Shown here: positions 24,856 through 40,504 of the stretch, piece after piece
How positions within the stretch are numbered: the first letter of the stretch is position 1
Layout: each line of letters begins with the position of its first letter
Assembly (NCBI RefSeq): GCF_030273315.1
Contig: NZ_CP127174.1
Span: 1,736,001 to 1,800,000, forward strand
Direction: 5' to 3'
DNA from: Natrialbaceae archaeon AArc-T1-2
Lineage (GTDB): Archaea; Halobacteriota; Halobacteria; Halobacteriales; Natrialbaceae
DNA: 64,000 bases
Position numbers and translations under genes: made by a program
The notes under the pieces: model-generated
What the model saw: only the letters and a program-made list of their open reading frames with translations
Told to the model about the DNA's origin: nothing
The model's database searches: none

Positions 24856-25836
24856 TCAATCGCTTTTGCACTCGAAGCCGCCGCTGTGGCCGTCCTCGCT
24901 GCTTGCCGGTATTCCGAGCCGACGCGAGCCGAGGCGGCGAAGCGCCGGTAGGAGCGTCTCGTGGCCGAGTACTGCGAAACCGAGGACGATCGTGGCGAAG
25001 CCGGCGACCGTGACGGCGGTGATCGACTCGCCGAGAAACAGCCAGCCCCCAAGCGCCGCGACGATCGGGCTGGCGTAGAAGGTCAGACTCGAGTGGATGA
25101 CGCCGACGTCCTCGAGCAACGCGAAGTAGGCGATGTACGCGAGCGCGCCGGCGAAGACGGTGACGTAGGCAAGCGAGACGATCGCGGTCGTGGTCCACTC
25201 GATCGCCGCGACCGACTCGCCGGCGGCGGCACTCATCCCGTGAAGCAAGAGCGCACTTAGTGGCAGCCCCCACGCGACCCGGGCCGTACTCGAGATCGTC
25301 GACGGCGAGCGACGGATCAACACGGCTCCGAGTGCGGCGCTGAACGCGCCGATCAGGACGATGACCGCGCCACCCTCGAGCGTCGCCAGCAGGTTGCCGG
25401 GGTCGATCCCGACCACCATCCCGACGCCGGCCAGCCCGACGAGCGAGCCGACCGCGCCGACCGGGGAGAGCCGTTCGTCCGAGAGCAAGACGGCGGCGAG
25501 CACTGGCGAGAAAATGGGAACGAGGCTGAACGCGATCGCACCCACCGCGCTCGTCACGTAGCCCTGCCCGACGAACAGCAAGGCGTTCGCCAGCCCGATC
25601 GTCAACACGCCAGCGGCGACGATGCCGACGAGGTCGCCACGGGTCCGGGGAACGAACTCGTCGCCGATTGCGGTGTGGTAGGCGTACGCGAGCAACAGGA
25701 TCGCCGCGAGGTCGAACCGGATCGCGACGAAAAGCAGCGGCGGGATGTACGCCTGGCCGGCCCTGGCGGCGACGAACGTGCCGCCGAAGAAGACACTCGC
25801 AAGCAGGAAGTAGGCGATCGTTCGCGTCCGGCTCAT
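24856..25836 (-). CDS. EamA/DMT-family transporter
   Basis: The 326-residue protein has about ten transmembrane helices arranged as two EamA repeats, roughly residues 5-145 and 155-290. Signatures include FFGGTFVAARAGQAYIPPLLFVAIRFDLAAILLL, typical of the first repeat, and AGALAYIAYFALLEDVGV in the second. Such drug/metabolite transporters usually export amino acids or other metabolites. The C terminus is a hydrophilic tail. The ATG at 25836 begins the first helix; 36 further in-frame residues upstream are unlike a transporter. Divergent transcription from an HTH gene with palindromes between suggests regulation. Confidence 0.87.
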   Translation of the reverse strand: MSRTRTIAYFLLASVFFGGTFVAARAGQAYIPPLLFVAIRFDLAAILLLAYAYHTAIGDEFVPRTRGDLVGIVAAGVLTIGLANALLFVGQGYVTSAVGAIAFSLVPIFSPVLAAVLLSDERLSPVGAVGSLVGLAGVGMVVGIDPGNLLATLEGGAVIVLIGAFSAALGAVLIRRSPSTISSTARVAWGLPLSALLLHGMSAAAGESVAAIEWTTTAIVSLAYVTVFAGALAYIAYFALLEDVGVIHSSLTFYASPIVAALGGWLFLGESITAVTVAGFATIVLGFAVLGHETLLPALRRLGSRRLGIPASSEDGHSGGFECKSD

Positions 25837-25870
25837 CGAGACGCCAACACCCCATCGTGGACGCCGGCCC

Positions 25871-25886
25871 CACTCCCGCAGGAGTG
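25871..25886. promoter_or_regulatory. Perfect hairpin upstream of the EamA gene
   Basis: CACTCC and GGAGTG form perfect 6-base arms around CGCA, 35 bases upstream of the EamA start on its transcribed side. It may be an operator or a leader hairpin. Confidence 0.45.
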
Positions 25887-25906
25887 GACGATCGTCGTCG
25901 TTCCTG

Positions 25907-25929
25907 GTTCTATCATTACTGGATAGAAC
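25907..25929. promoter_or_regulatory. Operator-like palindrome between EamA and HTH genes
   Basis: GTTCTATC (25907-25914) and GATAGAAC (25922-25929) are perfect 8-base inverted arms with a 7-base spacer, the size of a dimeric regulator site. It lies in the 245-base intergenic region shared by the divergent EamA transporter and HTH regulator genes, so both promoters are within reach. Confidence 0.55.
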
Positions 25930-39439: not shown

Positions 39440-39465
39440 CAGACGTGTGGGAGAAACGGCGACGC

Positions 39466-39470
39466 TTATA
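39466..39470 (+). promoter_or_regulatory. TATA box of the kdgK leader transcript
   Basis: TTATA at 39466-39470 is 25 bases before the ATG of the leader ORF at 39495. That spacing fits a leaderless haloarchaeal transcript starting at or beside that ATG. Confidence 0.5.
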
Positions 39471-39494
39471 CCCCAGCCTGTTCTTGTTCGAATC

Positions 39495-39554
39495 ATGATC
39501 GTGATCCGAACGGTCGCCGTCCGGCTGTCCTGGTCCTCTGGGTGGTCGCCGTGA
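39495..39554 (+). CDS. Leader peptide ORF coupled to kdgK
   Basis: A 19-codon ORF (MIVIRTVAVRLSWSSGWSP) begins 25 bases after a TATA-like box, and its TGA overlaps the GTG of kdgK (GTGA at 39551-39554). The overlap suggests that the ribosome finishing the leader re-initiates on kdgK. The peptide holds two Trp and three Arg residues, so attenuation-like control is conceivable. The sequence is short, and homology has not been tested. Confidence 0.5.
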   Translation: MIVIRTVAVRLSWSSGWSP

Positions 39555-40504
39555 CCGATCTCGTCACCTTCGGCGAGACGATGTTACGCCTCTCCCCGCC
39601 GGGGAACGAACGCATCGAGTCGACGAGTGCGTTCGACGTTCACGCTGCCGGCGCAGAGAGCAACGTCGCCGTCGCCGCGAACCGACTCGGCGCGGACGCG
39701 ACGTGGCTCTCGAAACTCCCCGACTCGCCGCTTGGCCGACGCGTCGTCGGCGAGCTCGAGCAGTACGGCATCGATACGGAAGTCGTCTGGAGTCAGACGG
39801 GACGACAGGGCGTCTACTACCTCGAGACCGGCACCAGCCCCCGCGGGACGACTGTCATCTACGATCGCGAGGACGCTGCAGTCACGACGGCCGAGCCGAC
39901 GGAGTTCGACGCCGGCCTGATCAAAGACGCCGGGATCTTCTTCACCTCGGGGATTACGCCCGCCCTCTCTGAGACGCTCCGGGAGACGACGCTCACGATG
40001 CTGAAAACGGCCCGGAACGCGGGGACGACGACGGCGATGGACGTCAACTATCGGGAGAAACTTTGGTCGCCCGCGAAAGCCAGAGAGACGCTGACGACGC
40101 TGTTTCCCGGCCTCGACGTTCTCGTCATCGCCGCGCGGGATGCGGAGACGATTCTCGAGTACGAGGGCGATCCGCGACAGCTCGCCCACCAGCTGGGATC
40201 GCAGTACGATCTCGAGACGGTGATCGTCACCCAGGGCGAACGCGGCGCACTCGCCTGGCACGACAACGTCGTTCACGACCAGGACGCCTACGAGGCGGAG
40301 ACGGTCAACCCGGTCGGCTCAGGCGACGCCTTCACCGGCGCGTTTCTGGCCCGTCGACTCGCCGGTGACGACGTCGGACGCGCACTCGAGTACGGAGCCG
40401 CGACGGCGGCACTCAAGCGAACGCTTCCGGGCGACGTCGCGCTCGTCACGGCGTCTGACGTCGAGAATATCCTCTCGGAACGGAACGTGCTGATCGATCG
40501 GTGA
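39551..40504 (+). CDS. kdgK: 2-keto-3-deoxygluconate kinase (PfkB family)
   Basis: The 317-residue sugar kinase phosphorylates 2-keto-3-deoxygluconate, and probably the galactonate analogue, in the semi-phosphorylative Entner-Doudoroff pathway of haloarchaea. Family markers are TDLVTFGETMLRLSPPGNERI, AGAESNVAVAANRLG, and the PfkB catalytic block NPVGSGDAFTGAFLA with its base Asp. The GTG at 39551 starts the conserved N terminus and overlaps the leader ORF stop. GTG 39542 would add three residues. Pyruvate kinase in this window acts further down the same pathway. Confidence 0.9.
   Translation: MTDLVTFGETMLRLSPPGNERIESTSAFDVHAAGAESNVAVAANRLGADATWLSKLPDSPLGRRVVGELEQYGIDTEVVWSQTGRQGVYYLETGTSPRGTTVIYDREDAAVTTAEPTEFDAGLIKDAGIFFTSGITPALSETLRETTLTMLKTARNAGTTTAMDVNYREKLWSPAKARETLTTLFPGLDVLVIAARDAETILEYEGDPRQLAHQLGSQYDLETVIVTQGERGALAWHDNVVHDQDAYEAETVNPVGSGDAFTGAFLARRLAGDDVGRALEYGAATAALKRTLPGDVALVTASDVENILSERNVLIDR

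Follow-up and report, generated by a model that had tools for sequence, protein, structure and literature searches.

A conserved, leaderless-spaced micro-ORF overlaps the kdgK start in Natrialbaceae and probably acts as a ribosome-loading fore-cistron

The kdgK locus

The window analyzed here, a stretch of 64,000 nucleotides from the 3.36 Mb genome of Natrialbaceae archaeon AArc-T1-2, contains kdgK, the gene for 2-keto-3-deoxygluconate (KDG) kinase, and immediately upstream of it a short open reading frame whose stop codon overlaps the first codon of the kinase. In the best-studied haloarchaeal species, mRNAs are mostly leaderless, and the ATG of this short frame follows a TATA box at the spacing expected of a leaderless start. 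The features of the locus are as follows.

39465 to 39470, + strand: TATA box CTTATA, beginning 30 nt before the ATG of the micro-ORF.
39477 to 39486, + strand: promoter spacer element, CCTGTTCTTG here, identical at 5 of 10 positions to the consensus of the relatives, CCGTCCGTTG (positions −18 to −9 of the ATG; column profile of 118 loci).
39495 to 39554, + strand: leaderless-spaced micro-ORF (putative fore-cistron) of 19 codons, translated as MIVIRTVAVRLSWSSGWSP and a stop; ATG at 39495-39497, TGA at 39552-39554.
39540 to 39545, + strand: SD-like GGGTGG inside the micro-ORF, with a 4-nt match, GGTG, at 39541-39544.
39551 to 39554, + strand: GTGA, in which the micro-ORF stop overlaps the kdgK start, as read from the sequence.
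39551 to 40504, + strand: kdgK, KDG kinase, 317 aa (NCBIfam NF041332, Pfam PfkB).

The identity of the kinase is well supported, with a score of 518.9 bits against the NCBIfam equivalog NF041332 (cut-off 440) and a PfkB match in Pfam, and its start can be placed at GTG 39551, the codon homologous to the starts of its relatives. Among the best 80 of 249 matches in named genomes, the closest named relatives are Natrialbaceae and other haloarchaea. The element upstream measures 60 nt and reads ATG ATC GTG ATC CGA ACG GTC GCC GTC CGG CTG TCC TGG TCC TCT GGG TGG TCG CCG TGA. The original prediction for this locus had described a TATA-like box, a leaderless-spaced ATG, a 19-codon ORF and a GTGA overlap with the kdgK start, all of which are present; it had also counted two Trp and three Arg in the peptide, and the translation holds the two Trp and only two Arg.

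The same genome carries a second kdgK outside the window (G000:C1:1721847-1722791), which is 63% identical to the first. This copy lacks a micro-ORF; its TATA-like box lies roughly 30 nt ahead of the kdgK ATG itself, and it is of the direct kind described below.

Conservation of the start, the box and the overlap

We searched for kdgK in 125 genomes of the family, all of which gave a match, in 24 genomes from other families of the order and in named genomes (best 80 of 249 matches). In total, 238 loci were fetched, 234 of which had a readable start, and these represented 198 distinct loci; the four that were dropped either lacked the N-terminal motif (L220 and L235) or failed a tighter version of it (L221 and L223). 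Each locus was classed by a simple hexamer count, which asked whether a TATA hexamer lies 27 to 32 nt ahead of an upstream ATG or ahead of the kdgK start itself; stop codons were ignored. By this measure, 118 of the 198 distinct loci have an upstream ATG with a full 6/6 hexamer (the strict set) and 23 have one with 5/6, while the box precedes the kdgK start itself, a direct leaderless arrangement, in 34 loci at 6/6 and 15 at 5/6. Neither was found in the remaining 8. The direct leaderless loci (n = 49) serve as the comparison set in what follows.

The micro-ORF arrangement was found in 125 of 125 family genomes, each represented by its best locus, with a strict box in 109 and a 5/6 box in 16. 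Counted from the first base of the kdgK start, the frame ends at +3 in 117 of these loci and at +7 in the other eight, in which a second stop is used that still overlaps the kdgK start. A similar distribution was observed in the strict set, in which the frame ends at +3 (NTGA) in 109 loci, at +7 in 6, at +10 in 2 and at 0 in 1, and in the 23 loci with a 5/6 box (+3 in 19, +7 in 2, +10 in 1 and +15 in 1). In all 118 distinct strict loci, picked by TATA spacing alone, the frame opened by the ATG stops between −2 and +11 of the kdgK start, against 1 and 5 of 118 for the two shifted frames.

The spacing of the box also varies little. In a clade of 131 loci described below, 113 have a hexamer of the form [CT]TTAT[AGT] between −130 and −50, and the ATG lies 29 to 31 nt after the first base of this hexamer in 111 of the 113, and exactly 30 nt after it in 103. 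The element between the box and the ATG is also kept at the kdgK of relatives, with C at −17 in 96% and C at −13 in 89% of 118 loci. We looked for CCGTCCGTTG-like elements as operators of a multigene regulon with two pattern searches, one of which gave 2 matches in 2 of 61 genomes, both at kdgK. The other matched 12 sites in 10 of 31 genomes, and by their position 6 of these sites belong to kdgK, so that no regulon emerged from either search; this negative result is weak because the patterns were narrow and most kdgK promoters were missed by them. The micro-ORF arrangement itself is confirmed as real and conserved, well beyond chance, and at kdgK in this family it is the rule.

A conserved frame and a variable peptide

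In the strict set, the ATG and the kdgK start are 29 to 65 nt apart and the micro-ORFs have 9 to 22 codons (9 to 28 codons overall). A FastTree phylogeny of the 198 kdgK proteins requires a minimum of 45 changes in this distance and only 5 in its remainder modulo 3, while about 30 frame changes would be expected if length changes ignored the frame (binomial P 1.4e-14). A second tree (IQ-TREE, quick mode, 139 micro-ORF loci) gave 42 length changes and 5 changes of frame class, and among 28 pairs of unequal length on disjoint tree paths, 23 show a difference divisible by 3 (P 1.5e-7). The doubtful loci L227 and L231 were excluded from both the second tree and the pair test. All eight strict loci in the other frame class still end, at +7 or +10, with a stop that overlaps the kdgK start.

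The residues behave quite differently from the frame. In 55 pairs of equal-length micro-ORFs, differences are spread almost evenly across codon positions, and pN/pS is 0.97, against 0.12 for the 60 codons near the kdgK start in the same pairs, which share no member and exclude identical micro-ORFs but were not required to follow disjoint tree paths. Neither the peptide sequence nor its Trp and Arg content is conserved among relatives, and we found no common sequence or residue run other than a C-terminal tendency that follows the letters of the SD-like stretch. Judged by these comparisons, the peptide looks unconstrained, and selection probably acts to keep the start codon, a continuous frame in register, the SD-like stretch and the stop-start overlap rather than the peptide.

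These results bear on the control by a leader peptide that had been envisaged originally. The leaderless-spaced frame and the stop-start overlap are kept in relatives, and the frameshifts or losses that would have spoken against them were absent, given that the eight shifted frames of the family still overlap the kdgK start. The expectation of a conserved ORF among orthologs holds for the arrangement (125 of 125) and fails for the length of the ORF, which varies, and for its residues, as the pN/pS of 0.97 indicates; a controlling peptide sequence is not supported, since neither the peptide nor its Trp and Arg content is conserved, and signal-responsive switching of kdgK is hypothetical. The expected rarity in haloarchaea applies within a single genome, where we found four to five strict cases in 864 kb, and not to kdgK in this family.

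The SD-like stretch and the kdgK start codon

Upstream of kdgK, the strict micro-ORF loci are rich in G, with 61 to 85% G in columns −13 to −8. An SD match of at least 5 nt, scored against AGGAGGTGATC, is present at 62 of the 118 strict micro-ORF loci but at only 4 of the 49 direct leaderless ones; the other 56 strict loci have matches shorter than 5 nt. The window belongs to the latter group, as its match of 4 nt (GGTG) is weaker than the GGAGG that is frequent in relatives. The start codon of the kinase also differs between the two kinds of loci: GTG is used in 89 of the 118 strict loci with a micro-ORF, but in just 1 of the 49 with a direct arrangement.

Distribution among haloarchaeal kdgK genes

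Most micro-ORF loci fall into a single clade of 131 kdgK genes (support 98) from Natrialbaceae, Halostella, Salinarchaeum and their relatives, in which 130 loci have the micro-ORF and one (L217) is of the direct leaderless kind. Outside this clade, micro-ORFs were found in Halorubrum and two neighbours (5 loci), in second copies of kdgK from three Haloferax and in Natronocalculus, all of which sit among relatives that are direct or coupled to a gene, and also in the doubtful loci L227 and L231. For this comparison, six tip labels of the tree were set by hand, five as coupled to a gene and one as a micro-ORF without a box. In the first copies of Haloferax, and in Haloarcula and Halorussus, the box lies mostly 27 to 30 nt before kdgK itself, and the absence of the micro-ORF arrangement from these genes indicates that it is not needed for kdgK as such.

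The three Haloferax second copies (L077, L093 and L100) have micro-ORFs of 13 codons that end at +10 of the kdgK start, with a Cys near the end in all three and two Cys in one of them. In five further loci (L069, L070, L071, L109 and L065), kdgK appears by eye to lie directly behind the end of another gene, with an ATGA overlap or a stop just before the kdgK start. This apparent gene end seems to resemble the tail of a KDPG aldolase.

Other genes with a similar arrangement

A scan of 864 kb of the genome of the window found the strict arrangement 5 times, compared with 3 matches for six control spacings together; when a gap upstream was required, 4 cases remained, while 12 control TATA spacings gave 0.25 on average. 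With a 5/6 box, the excess is weak (13 matches against a control mean of 5.25, range 2 to 9). The strict matches of the two scans comprise, in addition to kdgK, an rpa-like gene, cydA, a gene for an EamA-family transporter and two others. The EamA gene, a match of the first scan, lies within the window and provides its second instance.

25833 to 25916, − strand: micro-ORF of 27 codons ending in ATGA at the start of the EamA-family transporter gene (strict genome scan).
24856 to 25836, − strand: EamA-family transporter gene behind this micro-ORF, start at 25836.

In relatives, an ATG opens a frame of 18 to 40 codons that ends on or beside the EamA gene start, between −2 and +9, in 21 of 21 anchored loci, the copy in the window included; a further 3 of the 24 loci had no anchor, and the ATGs were chosen without regard to TATA. 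As a control, 27 of 47 ATGs in these stretches open such a frame, against 476 among 2386 sense triplets of other kinds; the best of these with a similar count does so in 13 of the 21 loci. The leaderless start is less certain here than at kdgK because the TATA scores are mostly 4 to 5 of 6.

A different picture was obtained for the gene at G000:C1:1480527 (L273:527-565), which we take to encode an rpa-like single-strand-binding protein and whose product had no match in a Pfam search. It has a 37-nt leader with GAGGAGG and an ATG frame of 10 codons, and we rejected it as a case of the same kind: of 28 anchored loci, 7 leave the frame unclosed ahead of the gene and 2 have GTG in place of the ATG (2 of 30 loci had no anchor). 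The leader sequence itself is conserved despite the loss of the frame.

For cydA (cytochrome bd oxidase subunit I, by Pfam), a micro-ORF of 24 codons lies ahead of the gene in the genome of the window (L278:4199-4273) and, by eye, recurs in one more copy (L345), while three close copies (L322-L324) follow the apparent end of another frame. In this set, 9 of 30 loci had no anchor.

Proposed function of the micro-ORF

The anatomy of the locus, taken together with published work on coupling in Haloferax volcanii and E. coli, leads us to propose that this stretch of 60 nt works as a leaderless fore-cistron and supplies kdgK with ribosomes, which we regard as the probable explanation. The TATA box at 39465 would set the start of transcription at or beside the A of the ATG at 39495, so that the mRNA would begin with AUG. 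A ribosome would initiate on this 5′-terminal AUG, synthesize a disposable peptide of 19 residues and terminate at the UGA at 39552-39554. With this UGA sharing bases with the GUG of kdgK, and with a G-rich SD-like stretch 6 to 11 nt 5′, the post-termination ribosome could then slip back by one base and reinitiate on GUG 39551 to produce KDG kinase. We infer the transcription start, the translation of the micro-ORF and the dependence of kdgK on it. The constancy of the start, frame and overlap while the peptide varies suggests that ribosomes are loaded at the micro-ORF and then pass to the kinase.

Several reports make such a passage plausible. Huber et al. (2019, PMC6728339) reported for four overlapping gene pairs of H. 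volcanii that downstream translation depended absolutely on upstream translation, with no de novo initiation at the SD. Other results of that paper speak against the proposal: in the H. volcanii pairs tested, SD removal had effects ranging from a strong reduction to, in one pair, an increase, and never abolished reinitiation, and one adjacent, nonoverlapping pair from Sulfolobus was not coupled. Further points against it are the short SD match of the window, the 5/6 boxes of 16 of the 125 family loci and the direct kdgK of clade member L217. Kramer et al. (2014, PMC3986360) described the SD as unused at 5′-UTRs in H. volcanii. Huber et al. (2023, PMC10666635) reported a steep dependence on the distance between stop and start and, for two gene pairs of E. 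coli, that coupling needs no more than the last 15 nt of the upstream gene. The stop-start overlap by which termination-reinitiation coupled pairs are recognized is present at the kdgK of the window as GTGA at 39551-39554.

Other explanations have to be weighed against the fore-cistron. A short ORF immediately 5′ of a metabolic gene, with two Trp codons in the window, is reminiscent of leader-peptide attenuators, in which the progress of the ribosome through Trp or Arg codons would sense an amino acid or another signal and set kdgK expression. However, the peptides of relatives share nothing beyond the SD-linked tendency at their C-termini, pN/pS in the micro-ORF is close to 1, lengths range widely among strict loci and KDG kinase is not an enzyme of amino acid biosynthesis; moreover, no terminator-like site was found between 39300 and 40700 (by a bacterial model) and no Rfam match at E 1 between 39380 and 39700. 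On the fore-cistron reading, it is the act of translation that is conserved and not its product, which argues against an amino-acid-sensing leader peptide, and we consider an attenuator very unlikely. The same substitution pattern, found in 55 pairs that share no member, makes it extremely unlikely that the micro-ORF codes for a functional small protein whose only link to kdgK is a shared operon: an open frame with a conserved start and promoter in all 125 family genomes would fit such a protein, but we see no purifying selection on its residues, its length varies and its frame ends on the kdgK start in every family locus.

It is also conceivable that the region is a plain 5′-UTR with an SD, that initiation occurs de novo at the kdgK GTG and that the ATG is incidental. 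The SD-like stretch does lie at a normal distance from kdgK, and the leader of the rpa-like gene, with its unclosed frames, its two ATG to GTG replacements and its conserved leader sequence, shows by contrast what such a region looks like. A plain 5′-UTR would nevertheless leave unexplained both the ATG at 29 to 31 nt from the box in nearly all clade loci and the frame-keeping through length changes, and the SD did not drive de novo initiation in the H. volcanii experiments cited above (PMC6728339, PMC3986360); for these reasons, we find this explanation unlikely. The micro-ORF could instead be the shortened end of a lost upstream gene, whose overlap has been kept with no present role, as some kdgK genes of Haloferax, Halogranum and Natronomonas appear by eye to lie directly behind the end of another gene and the copies of cydA include upstream frames as well as a micro-ORF. 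A piece with no role would not be expected to keep its frame over 42 to 45 length changes or to reappear in Halorubrum, which makes this possibility highly improbable, although a remnant of this kind may be how the micro-ORF originated.

Relation to known systems

If the micro-ORF is a fore-cistron, it has relatives in bacteria. Shell et al. (2015, PMC4633059) reported that mycobacterial leaderless small ORFs whose RTGA end overlaps the following gene are overrepresented and sometimes conserved in placement without conservation of sequence. The micro-ORF of the window, with 19 codons and GTGA, falls within the size and ending given for these coupled ORFs, which have a leaderless RTG start, 5 to 50 codons and an RTGA overlap, and in both systems placement and coupling are kept while the peptide diverges (the example in their Figure 6B compares two species). 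Unlike the kdgK case, the mycobacterial system is bacterial and based on TSS mapping and ribosome profiling, whereas we traced a single gene across 125 genomes, applied tests of frame and substitution to it and took TATA spacing as a proxy for the transcription start. Another close parallel is a synthetic cassette for Corynebacterium glutamicum (PMC10367133) that combines a leaderless promoter, a short fore-cistron and an SD motif with a target gene behind them, and for which the fore-cistron start and the SD are reported to be required for full strength. This design is engineered and bacterial, and kdgK would be a natural archaeal version of it.

In archaea, the H. volcanii termination-reinitiation pairs described in PMC6728339 and PMC10666635 have an annotated gene as the upstream partner (a urease subunit, ribosomal proteins and others), while at kdgK the upstream partner is a frame of 9 to 28 codons with no detectable constraint on its product. 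The H. volcanii uORFs reported in PMC4983044 are likewise short ORFs (15 to 31 aa) before normal genes in a haloarchaeon, but they were sought in 5′-UTRs of 150 to 250 nt, and kdgK is not among the entries of Table 2 of that paper. A search of titles and abstract openings, with subscription papers and preprints mostly outside its scope, found no report of an element of this kind at haloarchaeal kdgK or of an archaeal equivalent. The element is most likely an archaeal, product-free form of known leaderless coupling, maintained at one gene throughout a family.

Whether the same device is used more widely is, in our estimation, an even question. Haloarchaea might possess a class of disposable leaderless fore-cistrons that serve to load ribosomes, and in which a minimal AUG-first ORF ending on a gene start would rescue a displaced promoter or a weak GTG start (if the H. 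volcanii SD result holds generally). Such devices would have arisen several times at kdgK, would also have been kept at the EamA transporter gene, and may set or regulate output through the efficiency of reinitiation. If the fore-cistron reading of the locus is right, kdgK would provide a natural archaeal counterpart of the engineered leaderless bicistronic cassette and a case in which selection on the act of translation is cleanly split from selection on its product, as well as a testable statement of how haloarchaea translate a gene with a promoter set apart from the start codon.

The arrangement also carries a warning for annotation. In the mechanical longest-frame ORF list of the window, kdgK starts at an in-frame GTG at 39542, which falls within the micro-ORF.
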